A stretch of 48,460 bases of DNA from Bacteroidaceae bacterium (GTDB taxonomy: Bacteria > Bacteroidota > Bacteroidia > Bacteroidales > Bacteroidaceae), in contig JAKSIS010000013.1 in NCBI GenBank assembly GCA_024398665.1, positions 1 to 48,460 on the forward strand, written 5' to 3'. Numbering within the stretch: position 1 is the first letter of the stretch; each line of letters begins with the position of its first letter. Below are positions 12,534 through 40,504 of this stretch, in pieces. Both the position numbers and the translations under genes were made by a program. Under the pieces are notes generated by a model. The model saw only the letters and a list, made by a program, of their open reading frames with translations, did not search any database and was not told where the DNA came from.

Positions 12534-14330
12534 ATGAAAAGGAATGTCTTTATTCTTCTCTCGGCGCTTCTTGCACTGACAGGTTGCGTGAAGGGGTATT
12601 ATGTGACGTCACCTGACGGAAACATTTCAGTAGGGGTCACGGACAGTCTGCTGACAGTGCTTTATAAGGGCAGGGCTGTCCAGGTGATCAGCTGCGGCTA
12701 CAGCGGAAAAATCAGCATGTCCGCTGACGGAATTGTTACGGGAACGGAAACATATGATTTGCAGTCCGGCAAGTGCCGCACGGTTTCAGCCCCGTATTCA
12801 GCCTGCACTTTCAACTTCGCTGAAGGTACTGCAATGAATCTGCACGTATTCAATGACGGCATAGCATTCAGTTTCACCGGCGGTGACCGGACAGTCACCT
12901 ACCGCATTCCTGACGGTACGAAACGCTGGCTGCAGCAGCAGAAAACTGATTATGAGGGCTTCTATCCGGCTTCAACATCGGCCCGTGAAGGCAAATACAG
13001 CTATCCCGCACTGTTCGAATACTGCGACGGCGTGTTCGGTCTCATTACCGAATCCGGAGTGGATCACGGCAACAGCTGTTCGTTCCTGACATGCGGCAAT
13101 GACGGATACACTGTCACATATACTGACAGCGAACAGACAGACAGGCATCCCAGCCGCATACTGATGATAGGGTCGCTTGCCGACATAGTGGAATCAAATC
13201 TTGTGACAACAATGGCTGCAGGATGCAGGATTGATGACACTTCATGGATAAGACCCGGAGTGTCGTCATGGATATACTGGGCATACAACCATTCATCCAA
13301 GGATTTCCAGAAGGTCAGGGAGTACATAGACCTGGCTGCAGAAATGGGCTGGCCGTACACTCTGATAGACTGGGAATGGGATGAGATGACCGGAGGCGGA
13401 AACATTGATGACGCCGTGGCATATGCCCGCGGGAAAGGCGTAAGGGCAAATCTCTGGTATAATTCCGGCACGTCATGGATAGGCCCCGGCGCACCCGGAC
13501 CGCAGGACCGCCTGCGCACTGCTGAAGCCCGCGAAAGGGAAATGACACGTCTCGAACAGATGGGCGCAACCGGTATAAAGGTTGACTTCTTCAATCCTGA
13601 CGGTCATGAAATGGTTGACTATTACCTTGATATTCTTGAAGATGCCGCACGCCACCATCTTCTGGTCGATTTCCACGGCTGTACCATACCGCGCGGCTGG
13701 AGCCGCACATGGCCCAACCTGATGTCCATGGAAGCTGTCTATGGCGCCGAATGGTACAACAACAACCGCCGCATGACAAACGCCGCAGCCGCCCACAATG
13801 CAACGCTGCCCTTTACACGCAATGTAATTGGTCCCATGGACTATACGCCCTGCACGTTTACTGACAGCCAGAATCCGCATATTACCACTGACTGCCACGA
13901 ACTGGCTCTGCCCATTCTCTTCGAATCCGGTCTGCAGCATATGGCTGACCGTCCTGAGGCGTATCTGGGCCTGCCTGCTTTAGTGCGGAATATGTTAAGT
14001 AGTCTGCCTTCGGCATGGGAAGATACAAAACTGCTTGCAGGTTATCCGGGTGAGAGTGCTGTGATAGCCCGGTATTCAAAAGGCAAATGGTATATTGCTG
14101 GTATAAACGGCACTGATTCGACACTGACAGTCAGACCTGACTATTCGCGTCTTGGAGTTCTGGACGAACTTGATGCTACTGTTTTCACAGATAAAGGAGA
14201 AGGACCTGGAAAAGGCTTTGAAATCGGCCTGTCCATGACAGGATGTCCAAGTTCTCTGACATTGAGACCACGCGGCGGTTTCGTCATTGTCACCAGCCCC
14301 AAATGGCAGAACGGTGTTATCTTGAAATAA
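12534..14330 (+). CDS. GH97 alpha-glycosidase lipoprotein, probably retaining type
   Basis: The 598-aa protein has a lipobox (LALTGC, C18), an N-terminal GH97 beta-sandwich (about 22-230), a TIM barrel (about 235-490) and a C-terminal beta-domain. Signatures are TLIDWEWDE, IKVDFF with D351, and MEAVYGAEW with E400 and E406. From memory of the family, an Asp at the KVDF position is the nucleophile of retaining alpha-galactosidases, whereas inverting alpha-glucosidases such as SusB lack it. Alpha-galactosidase is therefore favoured over SusB-like alpha-glucosidase. It sits 7 bases after the M48 gene, and the radical-SAM gene begins inside its last 28 bases. Confidence 0.9.
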   Translation: MKRNVFILLSALLALTGCVKGYYVTSPDGNISVGVTDSLLTVLYKGRAVQVISCGYSGKISMSADGIVTGTETYDLQSGKCRTVSAPYSACTFNFAEGTAMNLHVFNDGIAFSFTGGDRTVTYRIPDGTKRWLQQQKTDYEGFYPASTSAREGKYSYPALFEYCDGVFGLITESGVDHGNSCSFLTCGNDGYTVTYTDSEQTDRHPSRILMIGSLADIVESNLVTTMAAGCRIDDTSWIRPGVSSWIYWAYNHSSKDFQKVREYIDLAAEMGWPYTLIDWEWDEMTGGGNIDDAVAYARGKGVRANLWYNSGTSWIGPGAPGPQDRLRTAEAREREMTRLEQMGATGIKVDFFNPDGHEMVDYYLDILEDAARHHLLVDFHGCTIPRGWSRTWPNLMSMEAVYGAEWYNNNRRMTNAAAAHNATLPFTRNVIGPMDYTPCTFTDSQNPHITTDCHELALPILFESGLQHMADRPEAYLGLPALVRNMLSSLPSAWEDTKLLAGYPGESAVIARYSKGKWYIAGINGTDSTLTVRPDYSRLGVLDELDATVFTDKGEGPGKGFEIGLSMTGCPSSLTLRPRGGFVIVTSPKWQNGVILK

Positions 14331-15148
14331 CCAACGTCTGCAATCTGAAATGCAGGTTCTGCCCCGGACATGACAGGGCAGGCCGTTTCATGTCTTTTCC
14401 TGAGTTTGATGCGCTTACAGACAGTCTTCGCGGACAGGTGAAATTCCTGTATTTCCATCTCATGGGCGAACCTACACTGCATCCGCAGCTTCCTCAGTTC
14501 ATCGGCGTGGCCCGTGAGAAGGGCTTTGTCCCGGTTCTGACCACCAACGGGACCAGGCTTTCAGCCGGACTGGCGCAGGATACTGCCGGACGTGGCCTGT
14601 ACAAGGCAAATATATCACTCCATTCGCTGGAAGGCAATGGCCTTACTGAAATGGAGGATTATGTGCGTGGAGTGATGGCGTTTTCCCTTGAGGCGTCGTC
14701 CAGTGGCGTAATAGTTGTTCTCAGGCTGTGGAACCGCGGCGGTTATAATACGGAAAATGAGGCTATTCTGAATCTTGTCGCCCAGTCTGTTCCACGTCCG
14801 TGGACAGAACGTGCTGACGGATGGCGTCTGGCGCAGAACCTTTTCATTGAATATGACAGCATGTTCTCATGGCCGGATTCCGATGGCGACGAGTGCGGAA
14901 ATGCTGACGTTTTCTGTTATGCTCTCAGAAATCAGATAGGGGTGCTGGTAGACGGCCGTGTGGTCCCGTGCTGTCTGGATCATGACGGAGACATGGCCCT
15001 GGGCAGTCTTTTTGACAATACACTGGAAGAAATACTTGCATCAGATCGGGCCCGGGCGATATATGATGGATTCTCACGCCATGAAGCCGTTGAACCGCTG
15101 TGCCGCACATGCGGATATGCAAATGTGACCAAACGCTTTCGCCGCTGA
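14303..15148 (+). CDS. Radical SAM protein with SPASM-like C-terminus
   Basis: The protein has 281 aa if started at [11 protein letters not shown]. Earlier in-frame Met codons lie deeper in the GH97 gene. The CX3CX2C cluster motif is C13-NLK-C17-RF-C20, followed by the GEPTLHP strand typical of the SAM barrel. The C-terminal part (about 205-275) has further cysteines ([23 protein letters not shown]), matching an auxiliary iron-sulfur SPASM/twitch domain. Such enzymes modify peptides or proteins or mature sulfatases, but no sulfatase or obvious precursor is next to it. Its start overlaps the GH97 end by 28 bases in another frame, so translation may be coupled. Confidence 0.87.
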
Positions 15149-24320: not shown

Positions 24321-25937
24321 TCAGATATTGAGAATACGGTCGCAGACTCTGGCGACCGATTCGCGGTGGCTTATGAATATGACAGTCTTGCGTCCGGCTG
24401 TATAGTCGCGCAGATTGCTGAGAAGCTGCTGTTCTGTAGCAGGGTCAAGGGCCGATGTCGATTCGTCAAGTATCAGCACGTTGCCGCGGCAGAGCAGGGC
24501 GCGTGCAATGGCAATACGCTGGCTCTGGCCTTCACTCAGTCCTGACCCGGATTCGCCGCAACGGGAATCAAGCCCGTCGGGAAGGTCCAGAACGAAATCA
24601 GCAACGGCAATGTGCAGCGCTTCCTTCATCTGTTCTTCAGATGGTCCTCCGGCAAGCATGAGATTGTCACGTATTGTACCGCTTATCAGACTGTTGCCTT
24701 GCGGGACATACATGAAATTGCAGCGCGTGTCAGCGCTGACAGGAGTGCCGTCAATCAGTATTTCACCTTCCTGCGGTTTCAGGAGGGCCAGGACAAGCCT
24801 TACCAGTGTGCTTTTGCCAATACCTGTAGGACCTGCGACTTCAGTCATCAGACCGGATTCAAATGTGTATGAGAAGTCTTTCAGAACGGGAGATTCCTGA
24901 TCCGGGTAGGCGAAAGTCATTCCGCTTACTTTGATTTCAGGAGCATGAGGACAGAAAAGAGGCTGCCCTTTTTCTTCAAGCGGCATATCCATCAGATCAC
25001 CAAGACGTTCAATTGATGTGAGCGAATGTATGAAGGCCGGGACATGGCGTGCCAGATCAGCTATGGGCCGCTGTACCTGGCCTACAAGCTGTAGGAATGC
25101 TGTCATCATTCCGAATGTGACAGCGCCGCTCCTGATACCGAACACGCCCCACAGGAAGGCTGCAGCATAGCCCGACATGAATCCTAGTCCCATGAAACCG
25201 CGTGCCGTCGCGTTGTAGTTCAAGCGTGTGACTGTGTTGTCCTGTATCTCTTTCTGGATAAATCCAAGTTTTGACAGCACTTTCTCCGTGCCGGTCAGTG
25301 TCAGTACCAGCACCCTGTTCTGCAGGCTTTCCTGTATATGCTGCTGTGCCAGACTTTCCTTCTCACGTATCACTTCAGTGAGCCTTCTCAGTTTCCCGAA
25401 AAACAGTCTGCTGCCAATTATTGCCACAGCCATGAGCCCGATAAGGATCCACAGCAGGTTGGGGGCCAGAATGAACAGGAATACCGATGCGGCTGCAAGC
25501 TGGGTGGCGGTTACAATTATGTCGGGGATGCGTGTGCACAGAAGGTCCACCATGACGCGGACGTCTTCAGTAATACGGTTGACCAGATCTCCGCTGTGAA
25601 ATGATTCGCGCCCGTTCCATACACTTGAAAGAACGTGCTCGAAATACCTGTAGCGCATGGCATTCGTATTTTTAAGCACAATGTAGTTCTCCCAGTAGCT
25701 GGCGGAAAGGCCGCTGACTATCTGGACCAGGATGATGGTGACCATACAGATGACATATGACCTCAGTTCAGCATCGGATTTTCCGGTTGCGATGTCCACA
25801 AGCGCCTTGCTGGTCCATACGAACAGAAGCGATGCCGCTATTCTCAGCACGCCTATCAGTACGCTGACCAGTATCTGCAGCCTGACCGGCCGCACCATTC
25901 CACGTAGTTCGTGCAGGCAGACTTTGAATGATTTCAT
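24321..25937 (-). CDS. ABC exporter (fused membrane and ATPase domains) of the PqqD/kinase cassette
   Basis: The 538-aa half-transporter has a six-helix exporter membrane domain (about 1-310) and an ATPase domain with Walker A GPTGIGKST (about 367-375), signature LSEGQSQR (about 466), Walker B VLILDEST (about 490) and the switch HRE. No N-terminal C39 peptidase domain is present, so any leader cleavage would have to come from another protein, possibly the S26-like peptidase two genes upstream. It overlaps the PqqD-like gene by four bases (ATGA) and is the last gene of the cassette. The cargo is unknown. A peptide is inferred from context, and lipid or drug export cannot be excluded. Confidence 0.9.
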   Translation of the reverse strand: MKSFKVCLHELRGMVRPVRLQILVSVLIGVLRIAASLLFVWTSKALVDIATGKSDAELRSYVICMVTIILVQIVSGLSASYWENYIVLKNTNAMRYRYFEHVLSSVWNGRESFHSGDLVNRITEDVRVMVDLLCTRIPDIIVTATQLAAASVFLFILAPNLLWILIGLMAVAIIGSRLFFGKLRRLTEVIREKESLAQQHIQESLQNRVLVLTLTGTEKVLSKLGFIQKEIQDNTVTRLNYNATARGFMGLGFMSGYAAAFLWGVFGIRSGAVTFGMMTAFLQLVGQVQRPIADLARHVPAFIHSLTSIERLGDLMDMPLEEKGQPLFCPHAPEIKVSGMTFAYPDQESPVLKDFSYTFESGLMTEVAGPTGIGKSTLVRLVLALLKPQEGEILIDGTPVSADTRCNFMYVPQGNSLISGTIRDNLMLAGGPSEEQMKEALHIAVADFVLDLPDGLDSRCGESGSGLSEGQSQRIAIARALLCRGNVLILDESTSALDPATEQQLLSNLRDYTAGRKTVIFISHRESVARVCDRILNI

Positions 25938-26203
25938 TTCTCTATGATGTCAGCTTCAATCCATTGCTGTACAAGTGCTTCCACATCGGACTGTGCCTGC
26001 TGTGGACTGACTTCATAGTTCTCCAGAAGCAGGTCACGCAGCGTGTCGGCATCGAATTCCCTGTTCTGGACTTCCTGCCACAGGAATGCGGCTGTTTCGT
26101 TAAGCACTATCATACGGTTGAAATTAACCTGTTGCAGACCTTCGGGAACGACAATGTTCTCACGGCCCAGCTTGCGCATGCGGAATCCTTCCTTAATTTT
26201 CAT
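25934..26203 (-). CDS. PqqD-like peptide-binding (RRE) protein
   Basis: The 89-aa protein has the PqqD winged-helix pattern: an N-terminal MKIKEGFRMRK strand pair, VNFNRMIVLNETAAFLWQ with the conserved N-E-T-A-AFLW core, and a C-terminal helix around VEALVQQWIEADII. PqqD-family proteins bind the leader of ribosomal peptides and present it to modifying enzymes. The start is taken at MKIKEG because the longer frame upstream overlaps the S26-like gene and has no family match. It begins 5 bases after the S26-like gene and overlaps the ABC gene start, so it is translationally linked to both. Confidence 0.85.
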   Translation of the reverse strand: MKIKEGFRMRKLGRENIVVPEGLQQVNFNRMIVLNETAAFLWQEVQNREFDADTLRDLLLENYEVSPQQAQSDVEALVQQWIEADIIEK

Positions 26204-26208
26204 GTCAG

Positions 26209-26652
26209 TTACTTGTATATACGGCGCAGAATGAACAGCAGATAGCGTCTGAAAGGTTTCAGGAACCTCCAGATACGTCCTTTCGTAGGTTTCCGTCTTC
26301 TGTCGCCGGGTTTGATAATTTCTTTTACACATCCAACTATGTCATTACGGGAACAGGTTTCAGTCCCGCATATGTTTCCGTCACCCATCAAGGTGACATG
26401 GTCCGTGTCAAGTCCTATGATACGGTGCATTATGTATCCGCGCTGTGGGACTTTGGCCAGTACAATGTCACCTATGTCTATTCTTTCCGCCCTTTTCAGA
26501 CATACGCTGTCCTTGGAATCCCTTATGAAAGGCAGCATGCTGTTACCCTTGGCGGTCAGTATGACTTCCTTGCCCTGATCCAGAAGCTCTTCGGCATAAG
26601 TCAGGAGTATGTCATTGGGCAGGTTTATCCTATTTGCCGGTTGGGAGCGCAT
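26209..26652 (-). CDS. S26/S24-like peptidase without membrane anchor
   Basis: The protein has 147 aa from the Met of MRSQPANR; a Met three codons earlier is equally possible. The catalytic motif KGNSMLPFI carries S38. The later GDIVLAK...YIMHRIIG has H76-R77 where signal peptidase I has Lys-Arg, so the dyad would be Ser-His as in SipW/Sec11 types. No N-terminal membrane helix is visible, while the last 25 residues are strongly basic with aromatics and could lie on the membrane. Its start overlaps the kinase gene end by 23 bases. It may cleave a leader peptide for the adjacent exporter, which is inference. Confidence 0.75.
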   Translation of the reverse strand: MRSQPANRINLPNDILLTYAEELLDQGKEVILTAKGNSMLPFIRDSKDSVCLKRAERIDIGDIVLAKVPQRGYIMHRIIGLDTDHVTLMGDGNICGTETCSRNDIVGCVKEIIKPGDRRRKPTKGRIWRFLKPFRRYLLFILRRIYK

Positions 26653-27556
26653 TGCATTCATTTGAATGATTGTCACAAGCCGTGTCACGGCACAGCACCG
26701 CGGCTTCAGCATTAGGGAGACATTCAAGTCTGTAGAAAGGTATGCCTGTCACTGCTGCCGACATGGTTTCAAACAGTCCGTCAGCCATTGCGGTATCTGC
26801 ATGAAAGCCCGATGCCGATGAATATATGGCGGCATATGCTTCAGGCACTCTGAGACGCTGGATGCGGTTGTATGGCGCCTGTTCCAGCATTACGATGGCT
26901 GCAATAGGAGCGTGCCTGTTCCTGTAGCATGGAGTCTTGCCGCTCCAGGGAGTTCCATAGACCATGGCTGTTCCGTCTTCCCGGATCCTGATTACGGGAT
27001 TGTCATCATTCAGAAGCCACGTTCCGGGAATGTTTTCCATCCACAGCCGGCTGTGGGTGCTTTTACCGGTACCGCTCTTGCCTAAAAACATGAACGCCAT
27101 TCCGTTGTAAACAACTGTAGACGAATGCATTTCCAATGTTCTTTTAGTGGATGTGCTGAATGCGAACAGTAGCATCAAGGAGTTATCAAAAGCAAACTTC
27201 GCACCAGACGGATCCTTGGACAGTATCTGAAGATGCCCTTGAGTCAGATTTTCGGACATATCCAGCCAGCCGCATATGTCGGACAATCTGTTCGGAGCCA
27301 TTGATACCCTGTAGCCGCAAGCGGTCCTGTACAGGTTCAATGATGCAGCCTCATCGTCAGCATTGACATTTTCCTGGAGCAGCACAGGGGTCAGTTCACG
27401 TTCAGGGAGACAGCTGACTGTAGAAAGTGAAAACAGTTCCGATACCGGTTCTTCCGTGATGAACGGGCTGTAGTTGTCCATCATGCTCCATATCGGACTG
27501 TCATCGGACATGGATACTGCAAATGTATGACCGGCAACGTTGAAAAATCTCTTCAT
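26630..27556 (-). CDS. HPr-kinase-like P-loop protein of the PqqD cassette
   Basis: The 308-aa protein starts at MKRFFNVAG. Residues 1-150 form an N-terminal domain of beta strands without a known name. The kinase part has Walker A GKSGTGKST (159-167, K165) followed by HSRLW, then LLNDDNPVIR and YGTPWSGK, the layout of HprK-type serine kinases and the HprK-like proteins found in peptide-modification loci. It probably phosphorylates a peptide or protein, but HPr itself is not encoded nearby. It is the first gene of the cassette, with TATCTTTG 6 bases before its ATG, giving an almost leaderless transcript, and it faces manC across a shared promoter. Confidence 0.82.
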   Translation of the reverse strand: MKRFFNVAGHTFAVSMSDDSPIWSMMDNYSPFITEEPVSELFSLSTVSCLPERELTPVLLQENVNADDEAASLNLYRTACGYRVSMAPNRLSDICGWLDMSENLTQGHLQILSKDPSGAKFAFDNSLMLLFAFSTSTKRTLEMHSSTVVYNGMAFMFLGKSGTGKSTHSRLWMENIPGTWLLNDDNPVIRIREDGTAMVYGTPWSGKTPCYRNRHAPIAAIVMLEQAPYNRIQRLRVPEAYAAIYSSASGFHADTAMADGLFETMSAAVTGIPFYRLECLPNAEAAVLCRDTACDNHSNECNALPTGK

Positions 27557-28690: not shown

Positions 28691-28698
28691 TAATTTTG
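28691..28698 (+). promoter_or_regulatory. Bacteroidota -7 element for the adenylate kinase fusion
   Basis: TAATTTTG, 27 bases before the ATG at 28726. It is one of only two elements in the window followed by T instead of C. Confidence 0.55.
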
Positions 28699-28725
28699 TA
28701 CCAAACACAATATCAATACTGTCAA

Positions 28726-29715
28726 ATGAAATACTACATTCTTTTTGGCCCTCCCGGAGCAGGCAAGGGCACACAGGCCGGATGTCTGGCAGAAAAGTAC
28801 AACCTTATGCATGTCAGCACCGGAGAACTTCTCCGTAACGAGATAGCCGCAGGCACTGAGTTGGGCAAACAGGCAAAGAGTCTTATCGAGGCCGGAAAAC
28901 TGGTTCCCGATGAGGTGGTCGAGGGCATGATGAAGTCGCTGTTCGAGAGCAACCCGGACAAGTCGGGTTTCCTGCTGGACGGTTTCCCGCGTACGCTTGG
29001 TCAGGCATCGGACCTTGACAATATCCTGGCCGAACGCGGTGAGAAGGTGAATGCCGTGATATCGATAATGATCCAGGACGAGACAATCCAGAAACGTCTG
29101 GCACACCGCGCCGAAATTGAGGGCCGTGCCGATGACGCCAATCCTGAGACCATCAAGAACCGCATAGCAACCTATCACAAGCAGACCGAGCCGCTCATTG
29201 AGTTCTACAAGAAAGCCGGCAAGTACCGCGAAGTGGACGGTGAAATAGGTGACATTGAAGCTGTCCGCAAGGAGATGCTCAAGGTGTTCCGCGGCATGGA
29301 CCGTTCATTTGTAAACAAACAGGTTGTGCTTGACGACGATCTGCTTGACCGTCTTCAGACACAGGCTCAGGAGAGCGCCCGTCTCAGAATGAACTATGAC
29401 CTGCGTGACACTGAAGAGGACCAGTCACAGCGCATGCTCAACGTCATGCTTCCGGGTACCATGACCAAGATCCACAAGCATATGCATTCCAGTGAGACAA
29501 TCATGCTGCTTCGCGGCCGCATGGACGCCATTTTCTACAACGACAATGGTGTGGAGAAGGAACGCATACATTTGGGCGGCGACACAGGTGTGTTCGGTGT
29601 GAACATTCCGCAGGGACAGTGGCATACGTTCCAGGTGTTCGAACTGGCTATCATATTCATGGCACAGGACGGTCCGTGGAGTCCCATGTCAAAGGAAAAC
29701 ATGTTGAAGCGTTGA
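28726..29715 (+). CDS. adk: Adenylate kinase fused to a WbuC-like cupin
   Basis: The 329-aa protein is a full adenylate kinase (1-190) joined to a cupin (about 195-329). The kinase has the P-loop GPPGAGKGT (8-16), LLDGFPRT, and a short non-zinc LID ending EGRADD. It interconverts ATP, AMP and ADP. The cupin part has MLPGTMTKIHKHMHSSE with H250, H252, H254 and E257, and H300 in GQWHTF, a metal site like that of WbuC cupins linked to O-antigen loci. One uninterrupted frame joins the two, with no stop or frameshift. Adenylate kinases normally end near residue 190-215, so this is a true fusion. The cupin's substrate is unknown. Confidence 0.9.
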   Translation: MKYYILFGPPGAGKGTQAGCLAEKYNLMHVSTGELLRNEIAAGTELGKQAKSLIEAGKLVPDEVVEGMMKSLFESNPDKSGFLLDGFPRTLGQASDLDNILAERGEKVNAVISIMIQDETIQKRLAHRAEIEGRADDANPETIKNRIATYHKQTEPLIEFYKKAGKYREVDGEIGDIEAVRKEMLKVFRGMDRSFVNKQVVLDDDLLDRLQTQAQESARLRMNYDLRDTEEDQSQRMLNVMLPGTMTKIHKHMHSSETIMLLRGRMDAIFYNDNGVEKERIHLGGDTGVFGVNIPQGQWHTFQVFELAIIFMAQDGPWSPMSKENMLKR

Positions 29716-34325: not shown

Positions 34326-35309
34326 ATGATTTCAGGAAATGTACGTCCGGCCAGCATGGAGCGCATAACAACTCCCGAACTGGCAAAGAAGTTCATTGAC
34401 GGGCAGATCGCTGACCTGCGCGCTCAGATCGGTAACAAAAAGGTTCTTCTTGCCCTGTCAGGAGGTGTTGACTCATCAGTGGTCGCTGCTCTTCTCATAA
34501 AGGCTGTAGGACAGCAGCTTGTATCCGTTCACGTTAACCACGGCCTTCTCCGCAAGGGTGAAGCCGAACAGGTGATACGCGTTTTCCGTGACGAACTCAA
34601 GGCAAACCTTGTCTATGTTGACGCAACTGACCGTTTCCTGGACAAGCTTGCAGGTGTTTCAGATCCCGAACAGAAGCGCAAGATAATTGGCGGTGAGTTC
34701 ATCCGCGTGTTTGAAGAGGAAGCCCGCAAGCAGGAGGGTATCAGTTTCCTTGCCCAGGGTACAATCTATCCCGATATCATCGAATCAGGTCCTGTCAAGT
34801 CACACCACAATGTGGGCGGTCTGCCTGAAGACCTGAAGTTCGAACTGGTTGAGCCCATCAAGTTCCTCTTCAAGGATGAAGTTCGTGTTGTAGGACACGA
34901 ACTGGGTCTGCCTGACAACATGGTTTACCGTCAGCCGTTCCCCGGCCCCGGTCTTGGCGTGCGCTGCCTTGGTGCAATAACACGTGACCGTCTTGAGGCC
35001 CTGCGTGAGTCCGATGCCATTCTGCGTGAGGAATTTGCAAAGAACGGTCTGGAGGGTAAGGTATGGCAGTATTTCACAGTCGTTCCCGACATGAAGTCAA
35101 CCGGTGTGAAGAATGACAAGCGCGCCTGGGAATGGCCGGCAATCATACGTGCCGTCAACACCCGTGACGCCATGACGGCTACCGTTGAAAACATTCCGTT
35201 CGAACTGCTGCAGCACATTACGAACCGTATTGTGACTGAGGTCCCCGGAATCAACCGCGTACTTTACGACCTGACTCCGAAACCTACAGGAACAATCGAG
35301 TGGGAATAA
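34326..35309 (+). CDS. guaA: GMP synthetase ATP-pyrophosphatase subunit without glutaminase domain
   Basis: The 327-aa protein covers only the second half of a usual ~510-aa GuaA. The PP-loop [11 protein letters not shown] lies at about 42-52, [11 protein letters not shown] follows, and the dimerisation domain runs to the normal end [13 protein letters not shown]. The class I glutaminase domain (Cys-His-Glu) is absent, and none is seen upstream or in the window. The frame starts cleanly after its own promoter and ends with a strong terminator, so it is not a remnant. It should convert XMP to GMP using free ammonia or a glutaminase partner in trans, as in archaeal split enzymes. Confidence 0.93.
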
Positions 35310-39334: not shown

Positions 39335-40504
39335 TCAGAATCCGCCGAAGTCACCTCCGCCAAAGCCGCCTCCGCCAAAGCCGCCTCCGCCGAAACCGCC
39401 GGTGCCGCCACCGAAGTCACCTCCGCCCATGCCGCCGCCGAATCCGCCGCCCATGCCGCCGCGGCCTCCAAAGTTCCTTTCGGTAACCTGGCAGCCTTCA
39501 GGAAGCTGGAAAAGTGAAGCGGGAACGTCACATGCCTCAAACTTTGCAGCGCTCTGTGATGTGGAGAACATTTCACTTTCAGTTGCTGTCGAGAGTACGA
39601 TGTTCTTGTATACGCATACAGTCTGCAGGTTGGTGTATCCCTGATTGTCAGTTGACTTGATCTGATACTTGTGGCATTTCATGCCGGCAACTTCGTCTTC
39701 ACCAAGGTCAGTGATCTTGTTCTTCTTCATTGTCTTGGCATCAAGGTTCTCCCAGTCAATGGGGGTCTTGGTGTTGGCGGTCATCATGCCGCCGCCCATA
39801 CCGCCGCCGAATCCTCCCATCATACCGCCGCGGCCCATATTTGCACCGGCCTGCATTTTCGTTGCGGTGTTTTCGGTCTCGTTTATGGTATAGGTATAAC
39901 CGTCAATGACAACGGTACGGGTAGTGCGTTCTTCACCCATTTTGGTGACTGTGACGGTCTTGCGGCCATAGTCATCGAAATATATCTTCGTTTCCATCTG
40001 GCTTGGGTCGAAACTGAAGTTGCGGGCGTTATCTCCGTTCTGGCCGCGCATGCCGCGACCCATTGGAACTTCACCGCCTGCAGCTGCCTGACCGCGCTCC
40101 GGACGCTGGCCCTGTGCAGCCTGACCGCCTTGCGCACCCTGTGCTCCGGGGCCGCGCTGTCCCTGCATGGCCTGACCGTTCTGAGCACCTTGCGGGCGCT
40201 GGCCCTGCATAGCCTGACCACCTTGCGGACGCTGGCCCATCTGGCCACCCATCTGGCCACCCATCTGACCGCCCTGGAATCCGCCCATGGCTCCCATCTG
40301 GCCGCCCATGCCGCCCATCATCATACCTCCGCCGAAACCGCCCATTCCGCGGCCGCCGCCACCCATCATGTTCTGGTTCGGAGCCAATGTGATGACACCT
40401 GACTTCACTCCGTAAAGTATCTCAGTGTTCTTGTCTTTCTTTGCTGCACCGGCTGAAAGACTGACTGCTGCAAGCATGACAGCAGCAATTGCCATTTTTC
40501 TCAT
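39335..40504 (-). CDS. Exported Gly/Gln/Met-rich protein, DUF4412-like
   Basis: The 389-aa protein has a signal peptide (1-20, ending SAGA). Residues about 48-155 are low-complexity: first Gly/Met-rich (MGGFGGGMMMGG), then repeats of QGQRPQGGQAM type. A folded part (about 165-350) contains YFDDYGRKTVTV, VIDGYTYTINE, VAGMKCHKYQI and VPASLFQLPEGCQV. This resembles the DUF4412/LolA-like fold of Bacteroidota surface or periplasmic proteins. The last ~35 residues are again GGGFGGG repeats. The mirror-image low-complexity ends around one domain are unusual. It sits between DUF3108 and pepP, probably in one operon. Confidence 0.8.
   Translation of the reverse strand: MRKMAIAAVMLAAVSLSAGAAKKDKNTEILYGVKSGVITLAPNQNMMGGGGRGMGGFGGGMMMGGMGGQMGAMGGFQGGQMGGQMGGQMGQRPQGGQAMQGQRPQGAQNGQAMQGQRGPGAQGAQGGQAAQGQRPERGQAAAGGEVPMGRGMRGQNGDNARNFSFDPSQMETKIYFDDYGRKTVTVTKMGEERTTRTVVIDGYTYTINETENTATKMQAGANMGRGGMMGGFGGGMGGGMMTANTKTPIDWENLDAKTMKKNKITDLGEDEVAGMKCHKYQIKSTDNQGYTNLQTVCVYKNIVLSTATESEMFSTSQSAAKFEACDVPASLFQLPEGCQVTERNFGGRGGMGGGFGGGMGGGDFGGGTGGFGGGGFGGGGFGGGDFGGF
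39346..39476. repeat. Tandem Gly-codon repeat (C-terminal coding)
   Basis: Short imperfect tandem repeats of about 15 bases (CCGCCAAAGCCGCCT-type on the plus strand) encode the FGGGG tail of the Gly-rich protein. They could change length by slippage in multiples of three. Confidence 0.6.
40075..40370. repeat. Imperfect tandem repeats (Gln/Gly/Met coding)
   Basis: Imperfect repeats encode the QGQRPQGGQ and GGQMGGQM segments. They are in frame and probably unstable in number between strains. Confidence 0.55.

Follow-up and report, generated by a model that had tools for sequence, protein, structure and literature searches.

A probable maturation and export hub for linear phosphorylated ribosomal peptides in Bacteroidota, with candidate precursors encoded in trans

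Introduction

Linear polyphosphorylated peptides (LPPs) are ribosomally synthesized and post-translationally modified peptides (RiPPs) of Bacillota that are encoded by lppAKBSDN (Popov et al., 2026; PMC13381572). The core of the system comprises a SpI-like peptidase, a discrete RiPP recognition element (RRE), an HprK-like kinase, an MsbA-like exporter and a nucleoside triphosphate (NTP) transferase (PMC13381572). Here we describe a four-gene cassette encoding an HprK-like kinase, a serine peptidase, a PqqD-like protein and an ATP-binding cassette (ABC) exporter on a stretch of 48,460 nucleotides from a Bacteroidaceae bacterium (GenBank assembly GCA_024398665.1, contig JAKSIS010000013.1). This stretch, hereafter the window, spans one contig (C5) from end to end; the assembly has 90 contigs and is 84% complete, and "in trans" is used for genes on another contig. 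We posit that the cassette serves as a hub that matures and exports a linear phosphorylated RiPP whose precursors are encoded in trans. It would thus be to Bacteroidota what the LPP system is to Bacillota, a reading to which we assign a probability of roughly three in four.

LPP leaders follow the consensus YxxPxVLxHQxIxFETxxS, in which YxxP is the motif bound by the RRE and the phosphorylated serine lies 18 residues past the tyrosine (Y+18), as the third residue past the cut (PMC13381572). Deletion of lppK removes the phosphate and deletion of lppS stops processing; the RRE is required for cleavage in vitro, and LppS cleavage is abolished by S29A, H68A or D93A (PMC13381572). The first LPP clusters came to light within capsular polysaccharide loci of Bacilli, and the authors consider the system to be restricted to Bacillota and its role to be unknown (PMC13381572).

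SynChlorMet systems (ScmC/ScmD of NCBIfam) also contain a PqqD-related protein, and ScmC is the best NCBIfam match of our kinase (5.7e-5). We take ScmC to be HprK-related; the scores are, however, far below the cut-offs (22.6 of 125 bits for ScmC, 15.5 of 100 for ScmD), and the cassette contains no radical SAM gene. Lasso peptide systems of the paeninodin type have an ABC exporter as well. They share an HprK kinase, an NTP transferase, a discrete RRE and a YxxP/WxxP-type leader with the system described here (PMC13381572), whereas the cassette has a serine peptidase and neither the B2 cysteine protease nor the macrolactam synthetase C is among its four genes (a negative that covers these genes and, by eye only, the neighbouring ORFs). 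Peptidase-containing ABC transporter (PCAT) systems for double-glycine leader peptides, likewise known from Bacteroidales, combine peptide maturation with export as well; their exporter carries a C39 domain and their precursors tend to a double-Gly motif, in contrast to the C39-free cassette and its YxxP leader (PMC10352776). Our literature search, which left preprints and most subscription papers outside, yielded no description of a system combining such a cassette with YxxP peptides, and the main text of the LPP paper holds no word beginning with "bacteroid" (PMC13381572).

Results

Predicted functions of the four proteins

The PqqD-like protein matched the Pfam family PqqD (7.4e-16). When its profile was searched against the PDB, TfuB1 (6jx3, E 2.3e-6), presumably a lasso-peptide RRE, was the sole sequence match below 0.01, followed by TbiB1 at 0.04. 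A first-pass annotation made from the sequence alone had considered the protein leader-binding and had named failure to match the RRE fold in a profile search as the finding that would speak against it; the match was obtained, and by analogy the protein may bind a leader.

The peptidase, which the same annotation had described as Ser-His S26-like, matched Peptidase_S24 (5.1e-7). Its Ser40, His78 and Asp93 (numbered after the 149-aa reading of the alignment; subtract two for the 147-aa gene) are invariant in 28 of 28 aligned proteins and are probably catalytic. Least secure among the four names is that of the kinase, as its family matches are weak (Pfam PEPCK_ATP 0.0023 and Hpr_kinase_C 0.28; NCBIfam HprK_rel_A 0.017, besides ScmC). 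The HprK-like assignment of the first-pass annotation is nevertheless sustained by motifs: in an alignment of 27 relatives (A4), His144, SGxGK (161-165) and NDD (183-185) are invariant and a WSGKTPCY block is at least 90% conserved. The spacing from the histidine to Walker A presumably resembles that of HprK/P.

In the ABC protein, ABC_membrane (8.5e-29, residues 23-291) and ABC_tran (1.7e-26, residues 352-495) were the only Pfam matches above cut-off. C39 was not found among the 13 Pfam families listed for it, in agreement with the initial reading as an exporter without a peptidase domain of its own. The best NCBIfam matches were type I secretion and MsbA models, with CydC also represented, all below cut-off; MsbA_lipidA reached 1.9e-65 and a type I secretion model scored slightly better.

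Table 1. Genes of the cassette, with positions in the window
Predicted product	LPP counterpart	Position	Strand	Remarks
HprK-like P-loop kinase	LppK-like	26630..27556	-	308 aa from ATG
S24/S26 signal-peptidase-like leader peptidase	LppS-like	26209..26652	-	147 aa
PqqD-like RRE	LppB-like	25934..26203	-	89 aa
ABC exporter	LppD-like	24321..25937	-	538 aa; membrane and ATPase domains, no peptidase domain detected

The genes are packed as tightly as first described, with overlaps of 23 nt (kinase/peptidase) and 4 nt (PqqD/ABC) and a gap of 5 nt (peptidase-PqqD), and either end of the contig is over 20 kb away from the cassette. Downstream, 4 nt separate its end from that of a convergent gene; upstream, a divergent manC-like gene (named by eye) starts 62 nt away at its second ATG or 14 nt at its first. 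These tight flanks leave no space for a precursor gene, as had been noted from the start, and the peptide-family profile described below found no convincing match among 1095 reading frames of at least 25 aa in the window (best E 0.16).

A family of short YxxP peptides

The first-pass annotation had proposed looking for small conserved open reading frames (ORFs) near related cassettes. A scan of short ORFs in related loci indeed returned a family of peptides of about 45 aa starting with M-K-K-x-Y-x-x-P. In some loci the peptide gene adjoins the cassette: it converges on the ABC gene in L118, L120, L129 and L136, and immediately precedes the kinase gene in L140. The first 21 peptides, none of them from the window's genome, formed the first profile; compared with NCBIfam and Pfam at E <= 0.5, they matched no convincing family and gave scattered one-member matches, including paeninodin at E 0.09. 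Among 61 genomes of relatives, 35 contained matches at E <= 0.1, namely 30 of the 37 from the window's genus and 5 of the 24 others; the highest number in one genome was 17. Sixty further stretches were fetched from nine genomes of the genus where full-length profiles matched, and 97 of the 101 distinct peptides scored reach E <= 0.01.

Loci from L111 upwards provided 145 unique peptides, 141 of which were long enough for position counts. Mean identity was 0.31 in the leader vs 0.08 in the core, and leader columns after the proline reached 0.22 vs 0.06 with shuffled residues; the invariance of Tyr and Pro themselves stems partly from selection, by a regular expression at first and by profiles plus a Y..P requirement later. 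A serine is found at Y+19 in 87 and at Y+20 in 55 of the 141 peptides, and at either position in 132, against a mean serine frequency of 8.9% per position. With a profile that stops at Y+12 and is blind to this serine, Ser at Y+19/20 was present in 110 of 119 peptides and in 64 of 69 outside the training set, a test that is only partly selection-free since the stretches had been picked by full-length profile matches.

Leader differences among three homologues of the peptide on contig C47 are predominantly synonymous, with proportions of synonymous differences (pS) of 0.19-0.32 and of nonsynonymous differences (pN) of 0.02-0.04 (3-5 synonymous events per pair); 16 close pairs show pS 0.35 and pN 0.10 in the leader and pS 0.44 and pN 0.14 in the core. 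This pattern is consistent with translated, constrained genes.

A variant was seen in L279 (1501-2595), L280 and L283, where the YxxP leader forms the N-terminus of an ORF of 260-364 aa and is followed by a hydrophobic lipoprotein-like stretch, as if a whole surface protein bore the leader. The ORF of L279 has no Pfam match.

Co-occurrence of peptide and cassette

Across 295 genomes of the order, the kinase was detected in 42 (E <= 1e-10), the peptidase in 39 (E <= 1e-6) and the peptide in 24 (E <= 0.01). Kinase and peptide occur together in 19 genomes spanning 18 genera; 5 genomes have the peptide alone, 23 the kinase alone and 248 neither (Fisher p = 3.3e-14, a value that, like the others given here, is inflated by shared ancestry). 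The association persists without the window's genome and the same-family match (p = 1e-12). Two of the peptide matches were judged false, one lying inside a longer ORF (G046, L257) and one being the tail of a secreted protein (G177, L259), and that of G060 (L255) is doubtful; all three were kept in the main counts, and without them the table reads 18/3/24/250 (p = 1.4e-14).

Apart from the window's genome, 18 genomes have both genes, and 7 of them (G055, G198, G193, G126, G274, G266 and G294) encode a peptide on the kinase strand at a distance of no more than 5 kb. Peptide matches per genome rise to 22 (G147), with 15 in G091 and 10 in G281, where copies are profile matches of which only part were read. 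In a sample of 296 genomes of the phylum, kinase matches were present in 10, those below 1e-70 only in the window's genome and G359; of the 3 genomes listed for the peptide, these two alone have intact matches, and a match in G543, though kept in the counts, was judged false or doubtful owing to a stop inside. Within the window's genus, 28 genomes have both PqqD and peptide, 3 PqqD alone, 2 the peptide alone and 4 neither (p = 0.007).

Candidate precursors and a second RRE in the genome of the window

A search with a single peptide gave no match in the window's genome, and profiles were needed. A 21-peptide profile containing neither of them detected peptides on contigs C47 (E 2.2e-5) and C41 (E 0.042); both were included in the later profiles A2 and A3, whose E-values for them are not independent. 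The C41 peptide follows a 1024-aa ORF with only a weak M26-N match, and the C47 peptide follows the end of a contig-cut ORF with a C-terminal tail of the same kind as that 1024-aa ORF. A third, weaker candidate on C24 (E 0.005) is followed by a lipoprotein-like ORF with a called length of 472 aa. As these peptides are located on other contigs, the window's genome encodes candidate substrates in trans. Together with the TfuB1 match, this supports the initial proposal of a RiPP maturation and export core acting on a distant peptide; its alternative, a cellular protein as substrate, is less well supported.

On contig C44 (G000:C44, L134), a second PqqD-like gene, whose product is 30% identical to that of the cassette, adjoins the sole PF14907 (NTP_transf_5) NTP transferase gene of the genome. 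Its operon also holds genes for a glycosyltransferase and a polysaccharide export protein. The operon in the window lacks an NTP transferase; with the second RRE and the NTP transferase encoded elsewhere, the LPP gene set is therefore present, split over five contigs.

The cassette in related genomes

A PqqD search matched 34 of 61 genomes; 31 of these are among the 37 genomes of the genus, and 3 among the 24 from other parts of the order. In addition, 161 matches to public contigs were obtained, of which the best 80 were analyzed; by their titles, many are rumen and gut metagenome-assembled genomes, and we take all titles to denote Bacteroidales, Bacteroidia or taxa belonging there, leaving the name of L094 aside. 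Gene order was scored around PqqD (same strand, within 4.5 kb; contig ends cut some loci). The order kinase-peptidase-PqqD-ABC, which the first-pass annotation had suggested searching for, occurs in 19 of the 34 genome stretches and 13 of the 80 contig loci, and it is not due to chance. The other genome stretches comprise kinase-peptidase-PqqD (5), PqqD-NTP transferase (3), peptidase-kinase-PqqD-ABC (2) and 5 others, one of which is kinase-peptidase-PqqD-NTP transferase-ABC. The other contig loci comprise peptidase-PqqD (46), kinase-peptidase-PqqD-NTP transferase (6), peptidase-PqqD-kinase (6), PqqD alone (4), kinase-peptidase-PqqD (3) and 2 others. An NTP transferase gene is part of the operon in 7 relatives. 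The flanking genes vary, and the operon therefore constitutes a unit of its own.

For the loci with a bare peptidase-PqqD pair, the kinase was found elsewhere in 20 of the 22 genomes searched for it. Counting these 22 together with 5 genomes that have the kinase in the locus, 25 of 27 carry the kinase and 26 of 27 have peptide matches. The notion of peptides without the serine at kinase-less loci was dropped, since 20 of the 22 genomes carry the kinase elsewhere.

Bare-pair loci (L035-L109) constitute an arrangement of their own with recurring neighbours, namely an M6 metalloprotease (4.7e-24, L054), a secreted-looking protein of about 180 aa without a Pfam match, and giant surface-type proteins. 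In L125 and L126, the peptidase gene precedes the kinase gene and is itself directly preceded by a small helix-turn-helix-like ORF and a HipA-type kinase gene (HipA_C 7.5e-42, L125).

Genomic setting of the peptides

Most peptides (101 of 145) follow an ORF with a surface-type tail or precede a lipoprotein-like ORF. A same-strand ORF ends within 150 nt upstream of 82 peptides, and 64 of these ORFs match a G-x-YI-x-NGK-like C-terminal tail, possibly a type IX secretion signal, compared with 36 of 338 control genes. For 75 peptides an ORF starts within 250 nt downstream; a lipobox was recognized in 50 of these ORFs, compared with 66 of 405 controls. Both tests are simple regular expressions, the tail control comprised genes of at least 150 aa vs test ORFs of at least 100 aa, and 13 peptides were counted on both sides, some plainly falsely on one (e.g., L209). 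The remaining 44 peptides have neither neighbour, many of them near stretch ends.

The large upstream proteins that were scanned gave GLUG, InlB-type or ASH-type matches. Ten lipoprotein-like ORFs picked from the 50 downstream ones proved diverse, with Mfa_like_1 in 1, Lcl_C in 2, DUF4969 (below cut-off) in 1 and no match in 6; a fimbrillin identity is one possibility.

Other genes of the window

A radical SAM/SPASM gene had been pointed out some 10 kb from the cassette. The gene is real (14243-15148), but as a partner it was rejected: no relative of its product (E <= 1e-5) was present in 114 related loci. Elsewhere in the window, by eye, an adenylate-kinase-like frame (28696-29715, forward strand) runs into a cupin-like C-terminal half, an unusual fusion, and a 327-aa ORF resembling the ATP-pyrophosphatase of GMP synthase (34326-35309, forward strand) has no glutaminase domain in the same frame. 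A 389-aa ORF (39335-40504, reverse strand) contains long low-complexity runs rich in Gly, Met and Gln.

Discussion

Sequence analysis thus provides a gene set, a relationship to RREs, a conserved Ser/His/Asp in the peptidase, a peptide family in the same genome, a conserved serine in its members and their co-occurrence with the kinase. By analogy with LPPs, leader binding, phosphorylation, cleavage and export may be expected here as well (PMC13381572). In our model, the PqqD-like RRE would bind the YxxP leader of a short precursor and bring it to the kinase and the peptidase. The kinase would phosphorylate the conserved serine 19-20 residues past the leader tyrosine, the S24/S26-like serine peptidase would then cut the leader off near that serine, and the ABC protein would export the short core. 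The precursors would be served in trans, being dispersed, often multicopy and in many cases located beside large surface-protein or lipoprotein-like genes.

The parallels with LPPs encompass the HprK-like kinase (recognized in our cassette by an invariant His, SGxGK and NDD rather than by score), the discrete RRE, the SpI-like serine leader peptidase and the MsbA-like exporter, with an NTP transferase in some loci. The precursors are likewise short; they have a YxxP leader, vary in their C-terminal part and carry a serine about 18-20 residues past the tyrosine. No cyclase is encoded in either system, and its absence from the cassette is not odd because LPPs are thought to stay linear (PMC13381572). 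The two systems differ in host phylum, Bacteroidota here and Bacillota for LPPs. Our precursors are largely dispersed in trans, with up to 22 profile matches per genome, whereas LPP clusters hold one to three; their leaders lack the FET before the cut, and their serine lies mostly at Y+19/20 instead of Y+18. We therefore liken the way the cassette would work to that of LPPs and do not claim membership of the same narrow family.

Several observations weigh against the proposed hub. At E <= 0.01, 23 of the 42 kinase-positive genomes of the order have no peptide match, and within the genus 3 genomes have PqqD only and 2 the peptide only, many of these assemblies being incomplete. In the window's genome, the matches of the C41 and C24 peptides are weak taken alone. 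Among the contig loci, 46 of 80 are bare peptidase-PqqD pairs without kinase and exporter nearby. Profile searches against the PDB at 0.01 found no match for the peptidase, signal peptidase included, and no HprK match for the kinase, for which PEPCK was best (5.5e-4). A cut as in LPPs would fall after Ile/Leu in our peptides. This is unusual for the signal-peptidase fold. Moreover, beyond YxxP and the downstream serine, the LPP leader consensus is absent from our family.

The linear phosphopeptide might also be an intermediate only, if the cassette acts on YxxP peptides in trans and the NTP transferase and other enzymes encoded elsewhere, such as those of the polysaccharide operon, decorate the phosphate to yield a further modified RiPP. 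We consider this possible, with odds well short of even. It would fit the NTP transferase gene in the operons of 7 relatives and the one adjoining the second RRE gene in the window's genome, among a glycosyltransferase and a polysaccharide export gene. In the LPP work the final product was not identified, and deletion of lppN left the detectable products unchanged in the host used (PMC13381572). Yet an NTP transferase is missing from all 32 kinase-peptidase-PqqD-ABC operons over the 4.5 kb examined, and the second RRE, being only 30% identical, may serve other peptides.

A different view of the peptides is that they belong to surface-protein operons as small ORFs, coupled or regulatory, and co-occur with the cassette by shared ancestry, while the cassette modifies another protein. 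Their preference for surface-tailed and lipoprotein-like neighbours and the many kinase-bearing genomes without a detectable peptide speak for this. It is nevertheless rather unlikely, given that peptide and kinase are found together in 18 genera and within 5 kb of each other in 7 of 18 genomes other than the window's, that the leader is conserved and the core variable, that the serine is conserved near the spacing of the LPP phosphosite, and that YxxP is the very motif bound by the LPP RRE. That an ordinary lipid, capsule or drug exporter merely came to lie beside a PqqD-like gene appears highly improbable: the ABC protein is indeed matched by models of type I secretion, MsbA and CydC, and a manC-like gene lies upstream, but the kinase and the peptidase-PqqD pair are found repeatedly in several gene orders, whether the ABC gene is there or not, and the flanks differ among relatives. 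Loci always carrying an unrelated lipid or drug exporter, which the first-pass annotation had regarded as decisive against a peptide pathway, were not what we found; the genes seen repeatedly alongside PqqD encode the kinase, the peptidase and the NTP transferase.

A hub for linear phosphorylated peptides with precursors in trans would extend the gene logic of LPPs, as described so far, from Bacillota into Bacteroidales (PMC13381572). It would also supply a large number of natural precursors that share one conserved predicted phosphosite, and the adjoining surface-protein genes of many of them are a possible clue to function. That hub and precursors are often apart suggests why cluster-based mining could miss such a system. 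A role at the cell surface is our guess. We further suggest, tentatively and at somewhat less than even odds, that one hub serves up to about 20 scattered paralogous precursors, each of which is integrated into a separate operon for an adhesin or a surface lipoprotein. If so, each surface protein would be expressed with its own secreted or surface phosphopeptide, which would amount to a trans-acting, combinatorial system of Bacteroidales surfaces.

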